From: Cyanobacteria bacterium FACHB-DQ100
Lineage (GTDB): Bacteria > Cyanobacteriota > Cyanobacteriia > Leptolyngbyales > Leptolyngbyaceae
Direction of reading: 5' to 3'
Assembly (NCBI GenBank): GCA_014695195.1
Contig: JACJNW010000025.1
Coordinates: 62,001 to 126,000, forward strand
DNA length: 64,000 nucleotides
Positions 50,131 to 62,982 of the stretch are shown piece by piece (within the stretch, counting starts at the first letter, position 1; each line of letters starts with the position of its first letter). The translations under genes were made by a program, and so were the position numbers. The notes beneath the pieces were generated by a model, which was not told where the DNA came from, did not search any database, and saw only the letters and a program-made list of their open reading frames with translations.

Positions 50131-50457
50131 GTTGAACTCAGAATTGATGAAAGGTTAAAAGCGATGGCGAAGGTTGATACTTAGCACCTTCACCTCTCTC
50201 TCTATATCATCGAGGAATTCTAGCGATTTGTAGGTGCTTAACGAAATGTATTACTTATCGAAAGGATTGAAATAACCAAGCTTACCTGGTTTAGGCTGGC
50301 AAATCGTATAAAGCTCCATCAAGCGAAATATTTGCAACGCGGTCGTTATCGCTTATATAAAAGTTAATTCAATCCTCCTGCGTTGAGTGATATTCGCTCT
50401 ACTCGGCTCAGCGAAACGTCCCTGGTTCGAGTCCTGCTGCTCAACATTCATCGCTTT
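50131..50457. other. Intergenic promoter region between divergent signalling genes
   Basis: No gene is seen. The open frame of the next kinase extends to TTG 50383, but no start signal supports that. No conserved operator was recognised. Confidence 0.35.
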
Positions 50458-52662
50458 ATGCACCCGCAAAACCCATCCACTTCTTTCCTCGCTTTAGACG
50501 CTGCCCTTGATCGCCGTGCCTTGACCGTGTCTCCAGACACCTCCCTGAGCGAGGCGATCGCGATGATGAGCAAAGCGCAGAGCAGTTGCGTACTTCCAGG
50601 ATTGGAGCTCTCGCTCAACACCACTTTGATGAGCGAAGCTCGTGCAAGTGGGCTTCTGGTCGTCGAAGGAACGCAGCTGCTGGGCGTATTTGCCGAGCGA
50701 GATGCGATCGGAGCAATTGTGTCAGGGCAAGACTTAACAGCAACGACTATGACTGATGTTGCACGGCAACCGGTCATTTGCTGCACTGCATCTAGGGATC
50801 AAACGGTTTTTACGGCGCTCGCTCAATTGCGTCAGCATCGAATCCATCACCTCCCCGTCGTGGATGATCATGGGCAATGGCTCGGACTCATCACTCCAGC
50901 GAGTCTTCGTGCGATCTTACCGCTCGATGAATTCCTAAAGTCAAAGCCGTTAGCCGAAATTGTGTTTCCACCCGTGATACAAGCTCCATCTACTACGTCT
51001 GTACTTAAGTTGGCTCAACTGATGGTTGAGCATGACGTGGAGTGTATTATCCTCACAGCGGGCGAGGAGATGCAGCCTGATGCCCAAGTTGGATTACTAC
51101 TTAGGCGGCACGTGCTTCAGCTTTGGTCTTTGGGGCTAGAGTTATCACAGATCCCAGCCCAAGCAGTAATGAGTGCTCCATTCCTGTGCTTCCCCGCCTC
51201 AGAGTCAGTATTAGTGGCTTACTGGGAAATGCAGCAAGCCAAAGTGCAGCGATTTGGGGTATGTGCCACTGAAGGAAACCTGTTAGGCATTGTCTCGCTG
51301 ACGAGTTTTCTTGAGACGCTGGACCTCAACGAGATGCACAGCGCCGTGGATCAGCTACAGAGATCGATCGAGCAGTTTGAGGTTTCAAAAACCAAAGCTG
51401 ACCCAGACCCGCGACCCGATCTTGATCTTCAGCTACTCGAAAATCCAACCGGCTTGCTCGAACAGTTACAGTGCAGCCAAATTCTCGCTGCGATGGCACT
51501 CCATATTCGGGAATCTCTCAACCTAACCGATATCCTGCAAAGGAGCGTCGAGGAAGTTCGACAATTCCTTAAAACAGATCGGGTAATTATCTACCAGTTC
51601 CACCCCGACTGGAGCGGCACTGTCGTGGTCGAGTCGGTCGCAGACGGTTGGAGACCTGCGCTTCACAGTAGGATTCAGGATACGTGCTTTGCACAAAATT
51701 ATGCCCACGCCTATAAACGGGGACAAACCCAAGTTTGCGATGACATTTACACGGCAGGGTTAACTCAGTGTCATATCGATATTTTGGTGATCTACGATGT
51801 ACGAGCCAGCCTGGTCGTTCCGATTCTACAGGGAGACCATCTATGGGGGTTATTGTGTGCCTATCACTGTGCTGGACCTAGACGCTGGCGTGAATTTGAA
51901 GTAGAACTTCTCAAGCAACTCGCCACACATATCGCGATCGCGATTCAGCAATCCGAGCTGTATCAGCAAGTTCAGACCGAATTGCAGGAGCGCCGACGCA
52001 CCGAGGAGCAGCTTAAGCTATCCCTGAAAGAAAAAGAAGTCTTGCTGAAGGAAATTCATCACCGAGTCAAGAACAATCTCCAGGTGATCTCAAGCGTATT
52101 ACGACTGCAATCGGATTACATCAAGGATGACCAGGTTCTCGCCTTGTTCAAGGACAGCCAAAATCGCATCCGCTCAATGGCACTGATTCATGAGAAGCTG
52201 CATCAATCGAGTAATCTGCTCAAAATCAACTTTGAGGACTACATTCGAGATTTAGCAGACAACTTGCTGCGATCCTATGCGGCGAATGCCAAAGCCGCCA
52301 CGTTACAAACTGAAGCGGTAGGGGTTTGGCTCAACATTGATACCGCCATTCCTTGTGGCTTGATCATCAATGAGCTTGTGTCCAATGCCTTGAAACATGC
52401 CTTTCCCACTCCAGCCCCCGACAATGAAATCCGGGTTGAAATTGTTCCCACTGCAGATCATCGATTGACCTTAACCGTTCGCGATAATGGGGTTGGTTTT
52501 CCACCAGATCTGGACTTTCGCAACACCGATTCCCTCGGCTTGGAATTAGTCTGCGTCTTCACTGGGCAACTCGAGGGCACGATCGATCTGGATCGAACTG
52601 TAGAATCGGGAACGACTTTGACAATCACATTTTCAGAACTAGACAATACCGGGAAGGCATAA
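50458..52662 (+). CDS. CBS-cyanobacteriochrome sensor histidine kinase
   Basis: About 734 residues from ATG 50458 (a TTG at 50383 is a possible longer start). The N-terminal 300 residues contain CBS-type repeats in pairs ([38 protein letters not shown], then a second, weaker pair) that bind adenine nucleotides in other proteins. A cyanobacteriochrome GAF domain follows (about 350-520): [10 protein letters not shown] supplies Cys438 next to His, the bilin-attachment pair, and [20 protein letters not shown] is typical. The kinase part is HisKA_2 type with [13 protein letters not shown] (His534) and an ATPase domain with [13 protein letters not shown] and DNGVGFPP. It should sense light, probably tuned by nucleotide level. 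It is followed after 2 bases by a receiver-kinase gene. Confidence 0.9.
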
Positions 52663-52664
52663 TT

Positions 52665-53795
52665 ATGGCTGCTGAAAAAATCTTAGTTGTGGAGGATGAA
52701 CGCATTGTTGCTCGCGATATCGAAAAGCGCTTGAAGAAGTTGGGGTATGTCGTTCCCGCCTCGGTTGCCTCTGCAGAAGCAGCGATTGAAAAGGTTGCAG
52801 AAGTCCGACCGGATCTAGTCTTAATGGACATCCGGCTCAAGGGTCCGATGGATGGCATCGAAGCCGCAGAGCACATTCGCACCGAGTATGAGACGCCCGT
52901 TATTTATTTAACGGCTTACGCTGATGAAGCGACCTTACAACGTGCAAAAGCGACCGAACCCTTTGGCTATATTGTGAAACCGTTTGACGAGCGGGACTTG
53001 CATGTGGCGATCGAAGTCGCCCTCCGCCGCCAATTATCAGAAACTGCCATTCGCGTTGCTTTAGAGAAAGAGAAGGAGTTGAGCGAGTTGAAATCCCGGT
53101 TTTGGTCGATGGCGGCGCATGAAATTCGCAACCCGATGACCTCGATCCTGGGATGTGCTCAAATGCTGGAGCGTGAGTCCAATTTGCCCGAGGAGCGACG
53201 CCGAGAGTTTTTGTACATGATTCAACAGTCGGTTCGGTCGATGGACCAGTTGTTAAACGATTTATTGGAGATTGGTCGCGTTGAAGGCGGCAGTTTGAAG
53301 TTCGAGCCTGCGCCTTTGGATTTGGAGCAGTTCTGTCAGCGCTTGGTGGAGGAAATCCAATTTAGCGCGGGTGCTCATCAGCGCATCGTGTTCCATTATC
53401 AAGGGGACTGTGAGCGGGCTTACCTCGATCAAAAGCTTCTGAGACACACGCTCACCAATCTCCTCTCCAACGCCATCAAGTATTCCCTCGGAAGCAGCCT
53501 GGTTTATTTAGATCTCGTTTGCACAGATCAACAGGTCACCCTCCAAGTTCGAGACACGGGAATTGGTATTCCCCTGGAGGCACAACGGCATCTATTTGAA
53601 CCGTTTCAGCGGGCGAGCAACGTAGGAAAGGTTCCGGGTACGGGATTGGGGCTGACGATGGTAAAACGATGCGTGGACTTGCAGGGGGGGCAGATTGCGG
53701 TTGAGAGTGAAGTGGGTGCCGGAACCACTTTTATTGTTCAACTCCCCCAGCATGAGCCCGTAAATAGCCAACTGCAAAGAACGGTTTCAGGTTGA
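52665..53795 (+). CDS. Receiver-histidine kinase
   Basis: A 376-residue protein with an N-terminal receiver (residues 5-120): VVEDE acidic pocket, phospho-Asp55 in [14 protein letters not shown], and Lys105 in YIVKPFDE. A dimerisation domain follows with His152 in AAHEIRNPM. The ATPase domain has [17 protein letters not shown] and GTGLGLTMV. It likely receives phosphate from the cyanobacteriochrome kinase two bases upstream, and both are co-transcribed. It may hold the next step of a phosphorelay, but the final output protein is unknown. Confidence 0.92.
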
Positions 53796-54633
53796 GAAGA
53801 GGCATTCCTAGGGGGACTTCGCTTGACTTAGATTGAGCCATTAGCCCTTCTATTTAGTCGAGAAATTGCGACGACCCGTTGCTCAAATGGAAGTGAGTAT
53901 ATGTCAATCAAGGATGCACCCTAGTATCAAATCCGCTTGATGCGTTGTTACTATCGAGTGTCAGGCAGACTTGTGCCATCTTCGTTCAATAGCAAGCGCT
54001 CAAATAATACTCAGACAAAAGTCAGCAGATTGTTTTTATTGCTAAAACAGCTTCAGCAAAAACCAATTAGTTGAGTGTTAATCTCCAACAAATAAGCATT
54101 TCCATTTAAATGTGAATAATAGAAACATTGAAAACAGCTGATAGAGCGCTTTGGAAAGGATTTATAAGAATTTGAGCAAGCATCAAAGTTAACGGACTTC
54201 ACCTGATTTCCCTTCCAAAAGCTAGAACCTCTGTGCACTGAGCATCAGCGCTTTTTGGCATTGAATTCACTTTTCCAAATCTTGGTTAACTGCTGAACAT
54301 GCAGAGACTCAGCCACTATCTTTTTAAGTCTTTTGCACAGTAAGCACGGAATATCGAGCTATTATAAAAGTCAGACTAGACGTCGATAGCTATCCTTTGT
54401 CGTCGCTACAGCTATATATCAGGGTCTCTTTTGGGTTTGAGGGCAGTTTGTACCGGGCGCAAAGCTTAGAAGTAGCCGTTATCTATCAAGCCAATCGAGC
54501 CAAGCACTGTTCAAGGAAAACGTCCTCAACGGCTTGAATCACCCCAATCAAAACCTGCTTTCAAACTCTTTCTCAGGGTTGTAGGCTGCGTTATCCCGTC
54601 TGTCCTAGGGTGATACAAGTAATCGGAGTAGCA
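53796..54633. other. Intergenic segment with a dispersed repeat (54061-54315)
   Basis: No gene is seen in these 838 bases. Bases 54061-54260 match 61207-61400 in the same orientation; the best block (54172-54240, ending TAGAACCTCTGTGC) is about 80% identical. Bases 54248-54315 match 43199-43262. The repeat may be a small RNA, a shared promoter or a mobile fragment. Confidence 0.5.
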
Positions 54634-54882
54634 ATGACCCTGACAACATCCTTGCCCATCCCAGACTTAATCCGTCAGCTGCGGCAGCATCTCAATCTGT
54701 CGCAGGAGAAGTTTGCAGCCGAATTGGGCGTGTCTTTCAAAACCGTGAATCGGTGGGAGCGGGGACATAGCCTGCCTTCACTGATGGCTCTGAAGCTGAT
54801 CGAAGCTCAACTGAAAACACTTGGGGAACCCGGGCAAGTTCTGTTACGCCGGTATTTCTTAAAGGGAGAGTTGGATGCCTGA
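54634..54882 (+). CDS. Xre-family helix-turn-helix regulator
   Basis: From ATG 54634, 82 residues (CGGAG upstream). The HTH is clear: IRQLRQHLNLSQEKFAAELG and VSFKTVNRWERGHSLPSLMALKLIE. It ends at TGA 54882, overlapping the next start (ATG 54875) by 8 bases, so it is coupled to the hybrid kinase gene. It is likely a small DNA-binding output or autoregulator of that kinase; the direct link is inferred from the coupling. Confidence 0.88.
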   Translation: MTLTTSLPIPDLIRQLRQHLNLSQEKFAAELGVSFKTVNRWERGHSLPSLMALKLIEAQLKTLGEPGQVLLRRYFLKGELDA

Positions 54883-57800
54883 ATCGAGATCGTCCGTTAG
54901 TCTGGAGGATATCTTTATTACCGAGGTCTTAGCCCAAAGGCCGTCCAGAACCCCTAACTTACAAGCTGAAACGCAGGCTTTCCATGCGCTGGCGCGGCAA
55001 CTCGCAGAACACCCACAAACGATGCTAAGAACCTTAGTGGCTGTCGCGAAGGAGCTGTGTCAGGCAGGAAGTGCTGGCGTGAGTTTACTCGAGGTGACTG
55101 CCAATGGAGAAGAAGTCTTTCGCTGGGTTGCCGTCGCGGGAGCCCTAGCCGATTACGAGGGCAGGACAGCGCCGAGAAACTTTAGTCCTTGTGGCACCTG
55201 TCTAGACCGCCAATCACCTCAACTTTATACCCATCCGGAGCGCTATTTCCCCGACTTCGAGCAAGCGAACCCTCCAGTCGTTGAAGGGTTGGGTATTCCG
55301 TTAATAGGTGCATCTCAACCCTTAGGCGTCATTTGGATCGTGTCCCATAACGCAGCCCGACAGTTTGATGCTGAAGACGTGCGGATTATGACGAGTCTGG
55401 CGGACTTTACCGCGGCTGCCCTACACAGTATTCAGCTGCGGCAAACGGCAGAAGTTGCCTTGCAGCGGGAGCAATCTGCCTGGCGAGAAGCCGAAGCCAC
55501 CCGTCAAGCCTTAGATGAATCGGCACAACGCGCGATTGAAATTCTGGAAAGTATTACTGATGCTTTTATCTGTGTTGATCAAGACTGGCGCATTACCTAT
55601 GCCAATCAAGAGGCTGCCCGGTTAACCAAACTGCACCCTGAGGAAATGATAGGTAAGACGCGCCAAGCGTTGCAGTCTGGAGCAACACGAAGCAGTTCCC
55701 CGCCTGAGGTCATCGCCACGGTGATGGAACAAGCTTATCGTCGGACTGTTGCAGCACCAGAGGAAATCCACTTCGAGACGTTTGATGAAGCTTCGCAGCG
55801 GTGGCTAGAGATCCATACTTATCCCTGTAAGGTGGGTTTCAGTCTTTATTTTCGCGACATTACTGAGCGCAAACGAGACAAAATTAAACGTCTGCAAGCA
55901 GAGACAGCCTTGCGAGAGAGCGAATCGCGCTTTCGTCTGATTGTCGAGAGTGTAAGAGACTATGCCATCTTTACGTTGGACCTGGATGGGCACATCACCA
56001 GTTGGAACCCTGGAGCCGAACGGCTGCTCGGTTACAAAGAGGCAGAAATTATCGGTCAACTCGGTCGCATTATCTTTACCCCCGAGGACAATGAGGCTGG
56101 AAAAGCCGATGAGGAACTTCAGACGGCGCTGACTCAAGAACGAGCAGAGGATGACCGCTGGCACGTTCGTAAAGATGGAAGCCGATTCTTCGCCAGTGGT
56201 TTCATGATGCAACTGCGAGACGAAGCAGGAAACCTTCAGGGATTGGTCAAGATTCTGAGAGACATCACCGGAGCACATCAAGCCCAAGAGCGGGAGCAGT
56301 TTCTATCCAGAGCGAGTTCTGTCCTGGCCGGAACCCTTGACTACAAAATCACGTTATTTAACATCGCGCAGTTAGCTGTGCCGTTTCTGGCTGACGTTTG
56401 TTTCTTTGACATTCTCAATCCCAATCACCAGATCGAACGAATGGCATGGCATCACGGCGATCCGACCAAGCGGGATTGGTTTGAGCAGGTGCAACGCTAT
56501 ACGCCGCCTCAAGACCGTGAGAACCACCCGATCTCCACCGTTGTTGCCACAGGTCATGCCAACCTTGTTGCTCACATGAGCGAAACATGGATGCAAGCCG
56601 CAGCGATCAGTGCCGAGCATTTGCAATTCATCCGTGACTTGCAGGTGCGATCGCTGATCACTGTGCCCCTGATTGCCCATGGGCGAACGCTTGGAGCTCT
56701 AACGGTTTGCTCCACCGCAGACTCGAATCGTCACTACACTCAGTCCGACTTGGCAGTGGCAGAAGAATTAGGACGACGGGCAGCGTTGGCACTCGATAAT
56801 GCCCGACTCTACCAGCAGGCGCAGGAAGCCAACCGAATGAAAGACGAGTTTTTGGCAGTGCTCTCGCATGAGTTGCGCTCACCGCTGAACCCGATTCTCG
56901 GTTGGCTGCAAATGATCCGCAGAGGAAATATGGATGCAGCCAGAACCGAAAAAGCCTGGAACACGATCGAACGCAATGCCAAGCTGCAAGCCCAACTGGT
57001 TGAGGATCTGCTGGATGTTTCCCGGATTCTGCAAGGCAAACTGAGTTTGAATATGGGTCAGGTCAACTTAGCGGTGACAATTCGCGCTGCCTTAGAAACG
57101 GTGCAGTTGGCTGCCCAAGCAAAGTCGATTGCGATCGAGACCAGACTTGATTCTCAAATTCCATCGATCCTAGGAGATGCCACCCGTCTACAACAAGTTG
57201 TTTGGAATCTCCTCTCGAACGCGATTAAGTTCACCCCGGAACAAGGGCAGGTCGAGGTGCACTTAGAACGGTTGGATAACCAGGCTCAGATTCGGGTGAG
57301 AGACACAGGTGTGGGGATTCCGCCCAGCTTTGTGCCGCACGTGTTTGACTACTTCCGGCAAGCGGATGGAGCGACAACTCGACGGTTTGGCGGACTGGGA
57401 CTGGGATTAGCGATCGTGCGTCAGATTGTGGAGGCGCATGGGGGAACGGTGTGGGCAGAAAGTCCTGGGGAAGCGCAGGGGGCAACATTTACGGTGAGAC
57501 TGCCGCTGACGCTCGCTCAATCCACAACCACTCCAGAAAGCCAACCCTCTGAAGCGGCTTGCAGTTTGCACGGGACTCAAATTTTAGTGGTCGATAACGA
57601 GCCCGATGCGTTAGAGGTTGCTGCGTTCGTCCTGGAACAAGATGGGGCAACAGTGATCACAGCCAGGTCCGCCGAGGAAGCGTTGACAGTGTTCAACGAA
57701 TCGCAACCGGATATATTACTCAGTGATATCGGGATGCCGGAAATAGATGGCTATATGCTAATGGAGCAAGTACGGTGCTTCGAGGCGTTGCAGCAGGAAT

Positions 57801-57979
57801 CGCTGCCCCCTGAGAAGCGGAGAGCGATTCCTGCCATTGCGCTCACTGCTTATGCTGGGGAGATCAATTATCAGCAGGCGATCGCGGCAGGGTTTCAACG
57901 GCATCTGGCTAAACCCGTTGATCCAGGGATGTTAGTCCAGACGATTGCAGAATTGCTGAAGCAAAACCCGCGTCAATAG
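54875..57979 (+). CDS. Hybrid histidine kinase GAF-PAS-PAS-GAF-HisKA-HATPase-REC
   Basis: A 1034-residue cytoplasmic kinase. The order is: N-terminal GAF (about 40-185, with FSPCGTCLDRQ), PAS (about 225-330), second PAS (about 345-460, WNPGAERLLGY), GAF (about 480-640), dimerisation domain with His665 in LSHELRSPLNP, ATPase domain (about 765-880, [29 protein letters not shown]), and a C-terminal receiver with Asp951 in ILLSDIGMPEIDG and Lys in HLAKPVD. No membrane span is seen. The FSPCGTCLDRQ GAF type is often associated with bilin- or redox-linked kinases but lacks a proven ligand. It is coupled to an HTH gene upstream; a pseudo-receiver gene faces its end with a 7-base overlap. Confidence 0.92.
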   Translation: MPESRSSVSLEDIFITEVLAQRPSRTPNLQAETQAFHALARQLAEHPQTMLRTLVAVAKELCQAGSAGVSLLEVTANGEEVFRWVAVAGALADYEGRTAPRNFSPCGTCLDRQSPQLYTHPERYFPDFEQANPPVVEGLGIPLIGASQPLGVIWIVSHNAARQFDAEDVRIMTSLADFTAAALHSIQLRQTAEVALQREQSAWREAEATRQALDESAQRAIEILESITDAFICVDQDWRITYANQEAARLTKLHPEEMIGKTRQALQSGATRSSSPPEVIATVMEQAYRRTVAAPEEIHFETFDEASQRWLEIHTYPCKVGFSLYFRDITERKRDKIKRLQAETALRESESRFRLIVESVRDYAIFTLDLDGHITSWNPGAERLLGYKEAEIIGQLGRIIFTPEDNEAGKADEELQTALTQERAEDDRWHVRKDGSRFFASGFMMQLRDEAGNLQGLVKILRDITGAHQAQEREQFLSRASSVLAGTLDYKITLFNIAQLAVPFLADVCFFDILNPNHQIERMAWHHGDPTKRDWFEQVQRYTPPQDRENHPISTVVATGHANLVAHMSETWMQAAAISAEHLQFIRDLQVRSLITVPLIAHGRTLGALTVCSTADSNRHYTQSDLAVAEELGRRAALALDNARLYQQAQEANRMKDEFLAVLSHELRSPLNPILGWLQMIRRGNMDAARTEKAWNTIERNAKLQAQLVEDLLDVSRILQGKLSLNMGQVNLAVTIRAALETVQLAAQAKSIAIETRLDSQIPSILGDATRLQQVVWNLLSNAIKFTPEQGQVEVHLERLDNQAQIRVRDTGVGIPPSFVPHVFDYFRQADGATTRRFGGLGLGLAIVRQIVEAHGGTVWAESPGEAQGATFTVRLPLTLAQSTTTPESQPSEAACSLHGTQILVVDNEPDALEVAAFVLEQDGATVITARSAEEALTVFNESQPDILLSDIGMPEIDGYMLMEQVRCFEALQQESLPPEKRRAIPAIALTAYAGEINYQQAIAAGFQRHLAKPVDPGMLVQTIAELLKQNPRQ

Positions 57980-58374
57980 ACGAGACACAACCGCTGGAGA
58001 AGGCGTTTCAACTGTTGTCCGTCTTCGAGATAGCTGACATATTCATGGTCACCGATCTCGATATCTTGCCCCTCAAGGTCTGCCCCATAGCGTTCAGCCA
58101 GGATAATAATTGGAGCACGGCTGTCTACTCCTGAATTTTGGCGAATCTGCTGCCCAATTGCCCTGCATTCATCGATCGTTTGGTCCATCTGATTAATCAA
58201 AATCAGATCAAAGCAGTCTTGCCCTCCCTGGGTGCGCTGAATGGCATTCTCTGCATCGAGCGCCATCATCACCTGATAGCCCCAGGCTTGCAGATTATGC
58301 TTCAGCATCGGTCGGACGTTATCATCGGGTTCCAGGACGAGGATACGAGCGGTGTTTGTGGTGGTCTGATGCAT
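57973..58374 (-). CDS. Pseudo-receiver protein 1 (phospho-Asp replaced by Asn)
   Basis: From ATG 58374, 133 residues with a receiver fold (ILVLEPDDNVRP, then DLILINQMDQTIDE, then YVSYLEDGQQLKRLL). The acceptor position is Asn61 (LINQ) and the usual Lys-Pro is Tyr-Leu-Glu-Asp, so normal phosphorylation is unlikely. The family is recognised from other cyanobacteria as a conserved stand-alone protein. It lies 55 bases after a Crp-type gene on the same strand. It has a close paralog at 59811-60209 in the same setting. A possible role is a constitutively active or protein-binding receiver. Confidence 0.85.
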   Translation of the reverse strand: MHQTTTNTARILVLEPDDNVRPMLKHNLQAWGYQVMMALDAENAIQRTQGGQDCFDLILINQMDQTIDECRAIGQQIRQNSGVDSRAPIIILAERYGADLEGQDIEIGDHEYVSYLEDGQQLKRLLQRLCLVY

Positions 58375-58429
58375 GTCTTTCACTTCTTCATAATTAACAA
58401 CTGGATGTCAGCGGACCTGGCTTGCCGCG

Positions 58430-59128
58430 TTATTGCTCGGCCAGTAATCGCTGGTATTGAGCTTTGATGGTTTTGAAACATTCGCAGCCACTCGCTTCTA
58501 ACCCTGTCTGATTGAGAATGTGCACACTGCCACGCCGATATTGAATCAAGCTTCTTTCTTGAAGACTTTGAGCCGTCTGCGTCACCCCGGGTCGCCGCAC
58601 GCCGAGCATGATCGAGAGAAACTCCTGCGTCAAAGGCAAATAGCTGGAGTTGAGTTGCCATTGGGCTTCGAGTAGCCACCGGCACAGTCGTTGCTCGAGC
58701 GGGTGGAGCGCATTGCAAGCCGCGGTCTGAGAGACCTGTGCCAGAAACACCTGAGTGTAGCGCAGCAGCACATCGCGCAGTTCGTCGTTCCGGTTAAATT
58801 CTTGTCGCATCACCTGAGCCTCGATCTTCATGGCGTTCCCTGCAACTTGAACAAAGACATCCGTCTGTGCCGCTTCACGGCTGCCCAAGCAGGCGTGAAT
58901 GCCGACCACATCCCGACTGCCGGCCATACCGACCTCGGCGACCGCCCCATTTTTCATCGTGATCGTGACTGAGAAGAGACTGTCGATCGGAAAATAAAGA
59001 TAGGATATAGAGTCGCCAGGTCGGTAGATGACTTTGCCTTGCTCTAAGCTGACTGGCTGGAGATGCGGTGCCAGTCGATCGAACACCTCAGCCGAAAGCG
59101 TCGCTAATATTTGACTGTCAGGGGTCAT
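58430..59128 (-). CDS. Crp/Fnr-family transcription regulator 1
   Basis: From ATG 59128, 232 residues. An N-terminal cyclic-nucleotide-binding-type barrel (YRPGDSISYLYFPIDSLFSV, then AEVGMAGSRDVVGIHACLGS) and a C-terminal HTH (LPLTQEFLSIMLGVRRPGVTQTAQSLQ) are seen. It lacks the RxAxx cAMP-binding Arg-Ser pattern and the Fnr cysteine cluster, so its ligand is unknown. The C-terminal tail GLEASGCECFKTIKAQYQRLL is a signature of this cyanobacterial subfamily. It is followed by pseudo-receiver 1 and preceded by an atypical receiver gene. It is the paralog of the Crp gene at 60239-60952. Confidence 0.88.
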   Translation of the reverse strand: MTPDSQILATLSAEVFDRLAPHLQPVSLEQGKVIYRPGDSISYLYFPIDSLFSVTITMKNGAVAEVGMAGSRDVVGIHACLGSREAAQTDVFVQVAGNAMKIEAQVMRQEFNRNDELRDVLLRYTQVFLAQVSQTAACNALHPLEQRLCRWLLEAQWQLNSSYLPLTQEFLSIMLGVRRPGVTQTAQSLQERSLIQYRRGSVHILNQTGLEASGCECFKTIKAQYQRLLAEQ

Positions 59129-59213
59129 AACAGCCTCAAAAGGTGAGTTGGAGAGGCTCTTCGTAGAACACAGCCCAGAATCAAAGGTCAAAGATTGCCG
59201 AAACAGGAATTTG

Positions 59214-59624
59214 CTAGACCGCTTCAACCTTCTCAGTCACGCTTGCCACGGTCGCAATCAGCTCGTCGAAATCGATCGGCTTGGATAAGTGTCGGGAAAA
59301 TCCGGCGCTGAGCGCCTGAAGCCGATCGGTTGTTCTGGTATAGACGGTCACAGCGATTGCAGGAATTCGGACGTTGAAAGTTGTCTCAAGCGCTTGCACT
59401 TGGCGGATGAGCGCATATCCATCCTCCTGGGGCAGGGCAAGCTCGCTGATTAGGAGATCGGGACGAGTTTGGTGAATCTGCTGAATCGCTTCGCGGACAC
59501 AAGTTGCTGTCGTCGTCTCCACACCATAGGAAGCAAACAAGAGCGTCAGTAGCTCAGATGAATCAGCGTTTGCATCGACGACCAGCACTCGTAAACCATT
59601 TGGCAGTAAAGCAGAATGACACAT
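59214..59624 (-). CDS. Atypical receiver protein (acceptor position Glu)
   Basis: From ATG 59624, about 136 residues (the frame opens to 59666). It has a receiver fold with VVDANAD in the acid pocket, where one of the two acids is Ala, and LLISELALPQEDG, where Glu61 stands for the phospho-Asp. Glu often mimics a phosphorylated Asp, so this receiver may be constitutively active. The Lys in HLSKPID is kept. It lies between the two Crp/pseudo-receiver pairs on the same strand. Its output is unknown because no other domain is attached. Confidence 0.82.
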   Translation of the reverse strand: MCHSALLPNGLRVLVVDANADSSELLTLLFASYGVETTTATCVREAIQQIHQTRPDLLISELALPQEDGYALIRQVQALETTFNVRIPAIAVTVYTRTTDRLQALSAGFSRHLSKPIDFDELIATVASVTEKVEAV

Positions 59625-59810
59625 ATTCGGGTAGCCCACGACAAAGTAAGAAACCATGGAACACAAAGTGAGCAGTCCCTGCTTTCCCCAGAAGCAATGC
59701 GGTTGAGTTGCTCAACTGTCTCCATCGTAGTGGCTGGAAAGATCGAGTTCAGTACGAAACCGTACCAACGGAAAATGTCCCACCGCGAGGATGGGGAAAT
59801 GCCAATGTCG

Positions 59811-60209
59811 CTAAAGGGGGCAAAGGGTGTGGAGAAGATGTTTTAACTGTTGCCCATCCTCAAGATACGTCACGTACTCGCTTTCCCCGACCTGGATATC
59901 TTTCCCTTCCAATTCGGGACCATACTTCTCAGCCATCACCACAATTGGAATCCGGCGAAAATGATCGGCGTGTTGACGAATCTGCCGCCCCAGGTCAACC
60001 GTTTCGTCGATCGACTGCTTGAACTGATTGATCAGAATCAGATCAAAGGACTCACCGCTATACCGAGTTCGCTGGAGCGCATCTGCGCCATCCAAAGTTA
60101 CCGTCACAAGATAACCCCACTGGTGCAAGTTGTCTCGAAGAGCGGGACGGACTGCATCGTCCGGCTCAACAAGCAAGATAACTTTTACGGTTGCTGATCT
60201 CAGTTCCAT
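59811..60209 (-). CDS. Pseudo-receiver protein 2 (phospho-Asp replaced by Asn)
   Basis: 132 residues, paralogous to pseudo-receiver 1 (shared VEPDD, RPxLxxNLxxWGY, FDLILINQ, IDE, QIRQ, EYVxYLEDGQQLKxLLxxLC). Asn61 sits at the acceptor position and YLED replaces the Lys-Pro segment. It lies 30 bases beyond the extended frame of Crp gene 2, on the same strand. The repeated order Crp then pseudo-receiver suggests a duplicated cassette and a functional tie between the two proteins. Confidence 0.85.
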   Translation of the reverse strand: MELRSATVKVILLVEPDDAVRPALRDNLHQWGYLVTVTLDGADALQRTRYSGESFDLILINQFKQSIDETVDLGRQIRQHADHFRRIPIVVMAEKYGPELEGKDIQVGESEYVTYLEDGQQLKHLLHTLCPL

Positions 60210-60238
60210 ATCCCGCTGACTTTGCCAAACACATAACG

Positions 60239-60952
60239 TTACGAGGGTTCTTCATGAGCGAGACCCAGCAAGCGATCGTATTCATCCTTGACCGTTTGAA
60301 AACACTCGCAGGAAAAGGCTTCTAGCCTCGATCAATCCAGGATATGAATGTGCCCCCGGTGGTAACGAATCAAATCGCGCTCCTGAAGCGATTGGGCGGT
60401 TTGGGTAACACCCGCCCGGCGTACCCCCAGCATATCTGCGATAAATTCCTGGGTCAGATCTAGATCGTCCCCCTCAACTCGGTCATGCGCTTCTAAGAGC
60501 CAGCGAGCCAAGCGTTGGTCTATCCTATGGAGGCTGTTGCAGGCGGTGGTTTGCGAGATCTGGGCGATAAAGGCTTGAGTGTAGCGCAGCAGCACATCAC
60601 GCAAGTCTTGATTGCGATCAAACTCTTCTCGCAAAATCCGAGCATCAATCTTCAGAGCGCTACCTGGAATCTGCACAATGTAGGTGGTTTGTGTTGTTTC
60701 TCGACCGCCCATAAAGGCATTAATCCCAATCACTTCACGCTGACCGACCACTCCCGTCTCAGCAGTTGTGCCATCCTTCATCGTGGTGGTGATAGAAAGA
60801 ACACAGTTGAGCGGAAAGTAAAGTGTGTGGATCGGTTCACCGGGATTGTGCAGACGATCTCCTTTTGACAACGCCTTTTGTTTCAAGTGTGGAGCAAGCT
60901 TGTCACCTAGAGCTTGAGGCATCGCACTGAGCAAGCGGTTTTGAGCGGTCAT
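60239..60952 (-). CDS. Crp/Fnr-family transcription regulator 2 with in-frame TGA
   Basis: The frame from ATG 60952 reads 206 codons to a TGA at 60332-60334 and then stays open for 31 codons to TAA 60239-60241. The extra part, SRLEAFSCECFQTVKDEYDR, is the conserved tail of this subfamily and matches regulator 1, so the TGA is most simply a single CGA (Arg) to TGA change. The truncated protein keeps the nucleotide-type barrel (HNPGEPIHTLYFPLNCVLSI) and the HTH (LDLTQEFIADMLGVRRAGVTQTAQSLQ), so DNA binding may survive. Whether the tail is needed is not known. The call covers the full original frame. Confidence 0.8.
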
Positions 60953-62517: not shown

Positions 62518-62976
62518 TTAGCCAGAACTCTCACCTTCAGCCCTAGCGGATGCCCCAGGTTGCAGCACCCAGTCTTCCTTCTCTCGGGCTCCGGTTCGAC
62601 GGGCAAGGAGGTGCTGAATCTGAGCGAAGAGTTCGGAGGTATCGGTCTGCTTACTCAGCACAGCATCGGCCTCGGGACAAAGGTCTGCAGCTTGGTCGAG
62701 GAGGTCTGGGGTGAAAAAACTGGAAATGAGGACGAGCAGCGGTGGCGTCTCTAGCTGCTGGTGTATCCGACAAATCAATTCGGGTCCGTCCATGCTGCGT
62801 TGGTAAGCTGGAGTCGGCATTGAGAAATCCACCAGCACTAAGTCAAATTGATCCATTTGAGGCAGGAAGGCTTGAACTTGAGTAAACGCAGACGTGACAT
62901 AGCCCAGCTGCTGTAACCGTAGGGCTAGCACAAAGCACCAAGCCTCGTTGTCATCAATAATTGCAATGCGATTCAT
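62518..62976 (-). CDS. Single-domain response regulator
   Basis: From ATG 62976 (AGGAGA about 9 bases upstream; a GTG at 62982 is less likely), 152 residues. It is a canonical receiver: acidic pocket IIDDNEA, phospho-Asp in LVLVDFSMP, and Lys in VLSKQTD. The last 25 residues are a polar tail after the receiver fold, and no DNA-binding domain is present. Unlike the receivers at 57973-60209 its acceptor Asp is intact, so it could be the phosphate-accepting partner of the hybrid kinases in this cluster. Confidence 0.88.
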   Translation of the reverse strand: MNRIAIIDDNEAWCFVLALRLQQLGYVTSAFTQVQAFLPQMDQFDLVLVDFSMPTPAYQRSMDGPELICRIHQQLETPPLLVLISSFFTPDLLDQAADLCPEADAVLSKQTDTSELFAQIQHLLARRTGAREKEDWVLQPGASARAEGESSG

Positions 62977-62982
62977 CCCCAC

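Follow-up and report, generated by a model that had tools for sequence, protein, structure and literature searches.

A Crp-family regulator and an adjoining pseudo-receiver, often with a glutamate receiver, are inherited as a unit in some cyanobacteria

Organization of the locus

The window, by which we mean the whole 64,000-nucleotide stretch of Cyanobacteria bacterium FACHB-DQ100 that was analysed, carries a cassette of two Crp-type regulators, two pseudo-receivers (PR1 and PR2) and one receiver (REC). Its features, in window coordinates, are as follows.

60332-60952, minus strand: Crp1, 206 residues, cNMP-binding-like domain and HTH_Crp_2, ended by TGA at 60332-60334
59811-60209, minus strand: PR1, single-domain pseudo-receiver of 132 residues, with N61, A93 and Y115
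59751-59766, no strand assigned: operator-like palindrome, core GTACG-N4-CGTAC, GTA-N8-TAC geometry
59214-59624 (ATG), minus strand: REC, single-domain receiver in which the Asp site is Glu61
59214-59666, minus strand: open frame of REC, from TTG at 59666
58430-59128, minus strand: Crp2, 232 residues, ATG start, full length with the CECF tail
57973-58383 (GTG start), minus strand: PR2, pseudo-receiver; an ATG at 58374 gives N61
54875-57979, plus strand: hybrid histidine kinase, GAF-PAS-PAS-GAF-HisKA-HATPase-REC with a normal Asp, convergent
54610-54882, plus strand: HTH_3 (XRE-type) protein whose gene overlaps the start of the kinase gene

Along the minus strand the order is Crp1, PR1, REC, Crp2, PR2, and an earlier note made from the sequence alone had both this order and the coordinates of the cassette right. 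The same note took the position next to hybrid kinases to suggest a signalling circuit. The end of the kinase gene overlaps PR2 by 7 nt, but it is convergent and a hybrid kinase is a neighbour in just 8 of the 31 neighbourhoods examined; the kinase is therefore not a general part of the module. A relative of the HTH_3 protein occupies the equivalent place in 5 of the 31. Scans for sigma-70 promoters and terminators gave matches at chance level. A plasmid search returned one record.

Crp and pseudo-receiver are neighbours and share a phylogeny

How constant is the pairing of Crp and PR? In the survey of adjacency across cyanobacteria that the earlier note had proposed as a check, a same-strand Crp is the upstream neighbour at 32 of the 33 loci with distinct PR genes. 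Identical PRs (L029, L034, L035, L039 and L043) were counted once, and from one homology listing of 18 hits the 11 weak ones were dropped (27-34% identity, E 1e-7 to 9e-6, frames of at least 261 residues). The 33 genes include L026, L027 and L047, which have a partial contig or no Crp, and the PR of L027 stands alone; the 30 complete pairs used below omit these three. Within those pairs Crp and PR are separated by between -14 and 392 nt, the genes of L016 and of L019 overlapping by 4 nt, and no PR frame (0/30) contains an inner stop.

An identical set of seven rows forms one clade in both trees, with support of 100/100 for Crp and 100/97 for PR. Crp and PR distances correlate with a Mantel r of 0.757, a figure that includes shared species history, and 0 of 10,000 permutations were as high. 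In nine comparisons, which share rows, the dN/dS of PR was 0.19-0.38; PR is under purifying selection. The distribution of the module is patchy. Of the 11 best Crps across 42 genomes, four have no PR, one of these with a PR-like remnant (L081). L024 has a gutted PR1-REC stretch.

Crp1 and PR1 are 77.7% and 65.9% identical to the Crp1 and PR1 of Phormidium tenue FACHB-886, and 59.2% and 53.8% identical to the second pair of that strain. Being closer to the first pair than to the second, they did not arise by recent tandem duplication. Crp and PR share a phylogeny, and the duplication is therefore ancient. Some cyanobacteria inherit a Crp and its adjoining PR, often with a Glu receiver, as a unit. 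A fold prediction of a linked Crp-PR reached a pTM of 0.64, too low for a confident placement of the domains.

The pseudo-receivers have lost the phosphorylation site

What became of the phosphosite in PR1 and PR2? The earlier note read Asn61, Glu61 and Asn61 in the three receivers, correctly, given ATG starts for PR2 and REC: PR1 has N61, and the PR2 residue is N64 counted from GTG and N61 counted from ATG. The YLED word that it saw in both PRs starts at residue 115 (PR1) or 118 (PR2). Its main observation, conserved loss of the phosphosite, holds throughout the complete pairs. The phospho-Asp position is N in 28 and S in two, the next residue is Gln in all 30, the catalytic Thr is Ala in 30/30, and the Lys place holds Y in 29 and F in one. 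The second acid is lost in 27 of 30, being kept in L016, L045 and L046. The exact word YLED occurs in 24 of 30. Fifteen loci were found by patterns that contained the word and say nothing on its conservation; the profile search did not require it. Lacking Asp at the phosphosite, the PRs are pseudo-receivers, or aspartate-less receivers (ALRs), and the site pattern shared by the 30 pairs is more than chance.

The predicted strand ends of PR1 place N61 at the close of beta3, A93 at the close of beta4 and Y115 at the close of beta5, with E15-P16 after beta1; from these we read the changes as D to N, T to A, K to Y and second acid to P. The profile-profile alignment of PR and REC has a one-residue gap at N61, so we base the equivalence of N61 with the Asp site on the strand ends and on the DLILIN/DLLISE motif, which is ungapped. 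Both PRs score below the curated PF00072 cut-off of 30.2 bits (PR1 25.1, PR2 19.9). The PR1 model has a predicted receiver fold (pLDDT 81, pTM 0.79) in which helix alpha4 is not formed; a conserved AE-YG..LEG loop lies in its place. Nearly every Foldseek match to this model is a receiver (TM to query 0.49-0.69), and the VIA-align matches (Z 11.9-14.0) begin with a human Rossmann-fold entry and continue with receivers; neither CikA nor KaiA is singled out among the matches listed by the two programs. A Cys near the C-end (C130), the sole conserved Cys of the alignment, is near-invariant (27 of 30).

The glutamate receiver is of a different kind

The earlier note treated the three receivers as one kind. 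They are two: REC belongs to a clade of Glu-receivers, and the PRs are another family without the Thr and Lys. REC scores 71.7 bits with PF00072, over the same cut-off, and carries its Glu at position 75 from the TTG or 61 from the ATG at 59624; its second acid is lost, and unlike both PRs it retains Thr and Lys. The count covered single-domain receivers that score more than 40 bits and lie no further than 3 kb from a Crp in the 31 neighbourhoods. From the 20 listed we excluded two that are on the opposite strand and one in the window (62518-62982, Asp, same strand, separated from Crp1 by another gene); receiver fragments of L024 and L028 were omitted. The Glu-receivers of the module have Glu in 17 of 17, T or S in 17 of 17 and K in 16 of 16, and the second acid is gone from all 17.

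Sixteen of them form one clade in a quick tree (SH-aLRT 99), beside receivers with Asp that belong to sister Crp modules and to kinases. The receiver at L020 4689-5210 has the Glu, but falls outside this clade on a long branch and has no palindrome. The basal lineage has an Asp receiver (L092 4757-5212, outside the 20), which lies 0.9 kb upstream of its Crp. Since the Thr (or Ser) and Lys that would hold a Glu are kept, the permanent mimicry proposed by the earlier note is plausible for REC on sequence grounds. A D-to-E change alone frequently fails to activate a receiver (PMC4395418).

Crp1 and Crp2 are Crp/Fnr proteins with altered ligand positions

Both regulators are members of the Crp/Fnr family, scoring 33.6 (Crp1) and 33.1 (Crp2) bits for cNMP_binding and 58.7 and 49.4 bits for HTH_Crp_2, over cut-offs of 27.5 and 27. 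Crp1 is shortened by 30 residues by its in-frame TGA, past which the frame continues to 60239 and encodes a conserved LEA..CECF..EYDRLL tail. The tail is present in 29 of the 30 aligned Crps, Crp1 being the exception, and the TGA is absent from the 29 others. The earlier note had overlooked both this stop and the retained Thr and Lys of REC.

Which ligand might these proteins bind? The cAMP cassette of E. coli Crp, which we take to be Glu plus Arg-Ser, was matched by eye to columns 77, 88 and 89; there the aligned Crps have I, L or V (30/30), Q (29/30, H in one) and T (30/30), so the residues of a cAMP-responsive Crp are replaced. The nearest solved sequences include NtcA, and the Foldseek matches for the Crp part include NtcA-PipX, behind mycobacterial Crp. 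Crp1 scores 19.3 bits against the cut-off of 244.95 for the NtcA family TIGR03697 (NCBIfam), and a Gln stands where an Arg of NtcA aligns.

A palindrome precedes the glutamate receivers

The palindrome at 59751-59766 precedes the REC ATG by 127 nt. With at most one mismatch allowed, 16 of 17 Glu-RECs have it upstream, compared with a mean of 0.065 in shuffles; REC start codons were chosen by hand for this count. Its 20-base form has two sites in the 5.5-Mb genome, both at REC-Crp modules (the second is a canonical REC-Crp-Crp module), and none in a reversed-pattern control; in the source genome the palindrome is thus restricted to REC-Crp modules. A genome-wide regulon was rejected: a loose 12-base form (91 sites) is rarer than its reversed control (239), and the 20-base form has the two sites just named. 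Summed by hand over 42 genomes, the sites number 22 and those of the control 13; eight of the 22, also placed by hand, are at REC-Crp modules, which puts the remaining 14 at chance level.

For Crps without a REC in front, the palindrome was sought in the 600 nt upstream. It is present with at most one mismatch in L028, L096, L033, L097, L090 and before Crp1 of L023, and absent from L032, L025, L084, L085, L086, L091, L092, L024 and L079 (which has no PR), as well as before Crp1 of the window, L020 and L022. Sister Asp modules of the L054/L055/L056/L064 type have none (0/4). Since many Crps without a REC and the L054-type modules lack it, the palindrome may belong to another REC regulator. We also considered that it acts as an RNA hairpin. 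Four copies do fold, at -6.6 to -10 kcal/mol and with z from -1.7 to -4.2, which makes a hairpin conceivable; judged by eye, however, the loop comes in either orientation, and changes confined to one half-site go uncompensated.

Discussion

With moderate confidence, we read the locus as an ancient, co-inherited module of REC(Glu), Crp and PR, present as two diverged pairs, in which the PRs are phosphorylation-dead partners of the Crps. Two diverged Crp-PR pairs flank a single REC here, and each PR would be made together with its own Crp. By analogy with PipX on NtcA, PipX being unrelated, a PR would bind its cognate Crp and set its activity, both the binding and the sign of its effect being putative. 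The input to the Crp would be its PR partner or a ligand of the PR; a protein partner would fit as input because the Crps are without the cAMP ligands of E. coli Crp and have Gln where an Arg of NtcA aligns. REC would be held in one state, presumably the active one, by a Glu braced by the retained Thr and Lys. Output would then be set by the amount of module made, through a palindrome that the Crp may bind, and not by phosphate. More tentatively, the PR may be a dedicated Crp effector replacing cAMP or 2-oxoglutarate, its receiver fold having turned into a PipX-like adaptor, with the Glu-locked REC and an operator specific to the module setting the level of output; this would be a new form of Crp-family control. 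Of the earlier note's unconventional signalling circuit, the conserved phosphosite loss and the adjacency of Crp and PR stand; the kinase as a general part and the uniform treatment of the three receivers are not supported.

NtcA-PipX resembles this scheme as a Crp-family factor with a small protein partner, if PR has that role. The differences are that PR has a receiver fold and PipX a Tudor-like domain, and that the Crp carries Gln in place of the NtcA Arg. A review of PipX regards it as conceivable that, outside cyanobacteria, further regulators of the Crp family have such adaptors (PMC6243067).

Could PR act on a kinase instead? PR (and REC) might be anti-kinases that block histidine kinase autophosphorylation, with Crp driving their synthesis in a negative feedback loop, a somewhat unlikely alternative in our judgement. 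FixT, which inhibits FixL, and Osp, which inhibits CckA, are unphosphorylated single-domain receiver-like proteins without the acid pair, in circuits with a Crp/Fnr-type gene (fixK, for FixT) or a hybrid kinase, as described in the accessible portions of their reports (PMC7078487, PMC9430884). In several cassettes the last pair faces a convergent hybrid kinase, and a same-strand PAS gene follows PR in L090 (PAS and GAF domains) and L091. However, FixT and Osp act on kinases, and those portions report no constant Crp neighbour. FixT of Caulobacter has a four-Cys Fe-S motif that is absent from the PR alignment, with its one conserved Cys. A kinase adjoins far less often than the near-constant Crp, the convergent kinase lies outside the operon, and the co-phylogeny figure covers PR with Crp only. 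That PR senses a quinone or other redox ligand, like CikA and KaiA, and passes the signal to Crp or a kinase seems less probable still as a separate account, although ligand sensing can be compatible with our main reading. Ligand binding is an established pseudo-receiver mode (PMC12632262), and the AE-YG..LEG loop and the C-end Cys are candidate sites; the fold matches listed did not single out CikA or KaiA, which weighs little either way.

Are the PRs and REC functional at all? The Crp1 nonsense codon, the L081 remnant, the gutted stretch of L024 and the patchy distribution would suit decaying, now functionless remains of a phosphorelay. We consider this highly improbable, given the low dN/dS, the invariant new residues, the Glu fixed across a deep clade and the intact PR frames; conservation already disfavours decay. 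Deamidation of Asn61 to Asp, followed by ordinary phosphorylation of PR, is the least credible proposal. Asn-to-Asp reversion at a receiver site is on record (PMC4395418, in its available text), but Thr and Lys are gone from all 30 PRs and the second acid from 27, and two members have Ser.

RitR, ChxR, FrzS and plant PRRs likewise have Asp replaced by Asn or Glu, and presumably carry further domains. By comparison, PR is a free domain tied genetically to a Crp; alpha4 is unformed in its model, and the residues that are invariant form a set of its own. The canonical REC(Asp)-Crp-Crp module of the same genome and genus (L078, L088) is built from the same types of gene, and there too the palindrome precedes REC, at a distance of 118-127 nt; the module differs in a receiver with Asp and the acid pair, and no PR was found adjoining it. 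Glu (26%) and Asn (16%) are the commonest replacements among ALRs (PMC4395418), and phosphate-independent receivers are already known as a kind (PMC12632262). The arrangement seen here was not found described in the literature searched, and the palindrome upstream of Glu-receivers is new here.

Why does such a module matter? How bacterial pseudo-receivers switch is termed a mystery in a 2025 review (PMC12632262). The module is a compact case for this question and for that of Crp-family adaptors: its free PR has a partner that is near-constant and inherited with it, the genome itself supplies a natural control in a sister module whose phosphosites are normal, and the candidate operator is short. 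A handful of small proteins and a single DNA site would suffice for tests. It hints at a Crp switch run by a partner protein, and not by phosphate or a known small molecule.

Pseudo-receivers and their cassette

The window belongs to a genome of 5.5 Mb in 44 contigs, cyanobacterial judging from named relatives. Its minus-strand cassette runs Crp1, PR1, REC, Crp2, PR2, where PR stands for pseudo-receiver and REC for a single-domain receiver; on the other side, a hybrid kinase gene and one for a small HTH protein are convergent with it.

60332-60952, minus: Crp1
59811-60209, minus: PR1
59751-59766: palindrome ahead of REC
59214-59624, minus: REC
58430-59128, minus: Crp2
57973-58383, minus: PR2
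54875-57979, plus: hybrid histidine kinase
50383-53795, plus: CBS-GAF-HisKA_2 kinase, then receiver-HisKA kinase, adjoining XRE and hybrid-kinase genes

At their ends, PR2 and the convergent kinase gene share 7 nt (57973-57979), and such an overlap is also seen in the relatives L020, L024 and L026; antisense coupling is possible.

The earlier note had read Asn61, Glu61 and Asn61 at the phospho-Asp place of the three receivers, and its residues are correct on re-reading of the sequence. Across 30 PRs this place holds Asn (28/30) or Ser (2/30), always followed by Gln. The Thr has become Ala in all 30 and the Lys Tyr in 29 and Phe in one; the first acid is Glu in 29 and Asp in one, and the second is gone in 27, with Glu in L016, L045 and L046. 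New residues invariant in all 30 include D17, R21, L24, Q62, A93, G102, Q121, L122 and L129. The model of PR1 has a receiver fold with alpha4 unformed, as does the PR in a second, linked Crp-PR model. The domains of that linked model, the one direct look at binding, are well folded, but with a pTM of 0.64 it counts neither for nor against PR as a partner of Crp.

The Crp domains are of Crp/Fnr type, with NtcA among the nearest solved relatives. At what we take to be the cAMP-ligand positions of E. coli Crp, Arg-Ser is replaced by Gln-Thr (columns matched by eye). A Gln also aligns with the Arg in the DRF stretch of NtcA, presumably a 2-oxoglutarate ligand. A C-terminal tail, LEA..CECF..EYDRLL, is kept in 29 of 30 aligned Crps and missing from Crp1 alone because an in-frame TGA shortens Crp1 by thirty residues; the conserved tail is readable beyond it (60239-60334). 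Recent loss, sequencing error and read-through are each candidate explanations.

The PRs form a genuine family, ancient and rare. With a cut-off of E <= 1e-12, they were found in 5 of 42 genomes from the order (counted from the match listing), in 3 of 386 sampled phylum-wide and in 1 of 8 of the genus; of 340 genomes from another order, 13 had them by a profile search (E <= 1e-15). The genome of the window has two; its third and last match (E 6e-7) falls within a frame of 1422 aa. Scanning named genomes yielded 15 PR loci, including Phormidium, Leptolyngbya, Scytonema, Microcoleus, Tolypothrix, Nostoc and Stenomitos. Kovacikia minuta CCNUW1 carries the cassette on a plasmid record of 1.2 Mb that is predicted to be non-mobilizable. 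From the patchy distribution, horizontal spread of the cassette would be our guess.

Pairing and joint duplication of Crp and PR

Are Crp and PR neighbours across cyanobacteria, as the earlier note had proposed to survey? After removal of duplicates, a same-strand Crp is the upstream neighbour of PR at 32 of 33 loci (contig ends truncate L026 and L047). The intergenic distance in 30 complete pairs is between -14 and 392 nt; in L016 and L019 the two genes overlap by 4 nt. L020 (Phormidium tenue FACHB-886) matches the window in all five genes and in the convergent kinase, whereas L022, L023 and L024 depart from this layout by an additional Crp or by losses. The sole exception, L027, has a PR without partners: the flanking genes are the same, but what lay between them besides PR has been deleted. 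At this locus (L027 6847-9729) the lone PR lies between flanking genes that in L030 and L031 enclose REC-PAS/Crp-Crp-PR, one of them encoding a selenium-binding protein homologue (SBP56).

The tie is looser when viewed from Crp than from PR. Among the best 11 Crps in 42 genomes (E < 1e-98), seven have a PR and four do not; three of these four keep the Glu-carrying REC, one of them (L081) also with a PR-like remnant (2157-2369, 13.4 bits) upstream of intact Glu-REC and Crp.

The second-pair clade comprises the identical 7 members in the Crp tree (support 100/100) and in the PR tree (100/97). Crp and PR distance matrices correlate at r 0.757, reached in 0 of 10,000 permutations, a value that still includes shared species history. 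The duplication is older than the split from L020 and L022, both of which have the two pairs; within all three cassettes that contain two complete pairs (window, L020, L022), every Crp has retained its own PR. Across 9 close comparisons, which have rows in common, PR shows a dN/dS of 0.19-0.38 and Crp one of 0.14-0.36.

Other genes recur near these pairs in relatives.

L028 5795-6955; also L030, L031, L033, L094, L095, L096: PAS, cNMP-binding and HTH_Crp protein (domains from the scan of L028) encoded ahead of Crp-PR in 7 neighbourhoods, flanked by REC and Crp wherever there is a REC
L022 5935-6876, L024 5021-5941; also L023, L083, L028, L096: adjoining CheR-type methyltransferase gene (6/31 neighbourhoods; divergent in 4; domains scanned in 3), a candidate target gene
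L090 7890-9521, L091 7311-8924 (basal lineage): same-strand PAS-domain gene after Crp-PR (of the two, L090 was scanned and has PAS and GAF), possibly a sensor of the pair

Glu-receivers and a candidate operator

All 17 counted same-strand single-domain receivers near these Crps carry Glu at the Asp place, whereas all 10 receivers found near sister Crps (tree set) carry Asp. The Glu-RECs have lost the second acid (17/17) and retain Thr or Ser (17/17) and Lys (16/16); 16 of 17 group as a single clade in a quick, non-bootstrapped tree (SH-aLRT 99). Left out of this count were two receivers with Asp (window 62518-62982; L092 4757-5212).

An inverted-repeat scan of 36 upstream regions found GTACG-N4-CGTAC in 6; across 20 block shuffles, no repeat was shared by more than 3. 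With at most one mismatch, the palindrome lies in 16 of 17 Glu-REC upstream regions (300 nt), 52-282 nt ahead of the start codon (plain-shuffle mean 0.065, maximum 2 in 200). It also stands 127 and 118 nt ahead of REC in L078 and L088, canonical REC-Crp-Crp modules of the same genome and genus; four other canonical modules had upstream sequence too short for the scan, and it is absent from 4/4 sister modules of another type. A 20-base form occurs at two places genome-wide, the cassette and a canonical module on contig 22 (control 0), and the same variant at REC-Crp-Crp modules of four genomes of the genus (G018, G019, G021, G022). The half-sites read GTA-N8-TAC, which we take to be how NtcA and Crp sites are spaced. 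Because of this geometry, and because both Crp groups have VRR or TRR as a recurrent word in the recognition helix, a Crp is the likeliest binder of this candidate operator; counting against it, no palindrome was found upstream of many Crps without REC ahead.

What does the pseudo-receiver act on?

Receivers lacking the Asp, receiver-like inhibitors that are free proteins, and a Crp-family factor with a protein partner are already known one by one; their combination was in none of the papers listed by searches of an open-access library. The PR could act as an anti-kinase instead of a Crp partner. The kinase, however, adjoins in 8 of 31 neighbourhoods (of the 31, 4 lack PR and several are truncated at contig ends), whereas Crp is a near-constant neighbour, and for this reason we prefer a Crp partner. 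Because the two genes are near-constant neighbours, overlap translationally in two cases and duplicated jointly, and because the phosphate chemistry is lost, the sequence evidence is best fitted by a PR that would serve as the protein partner of its Crp.
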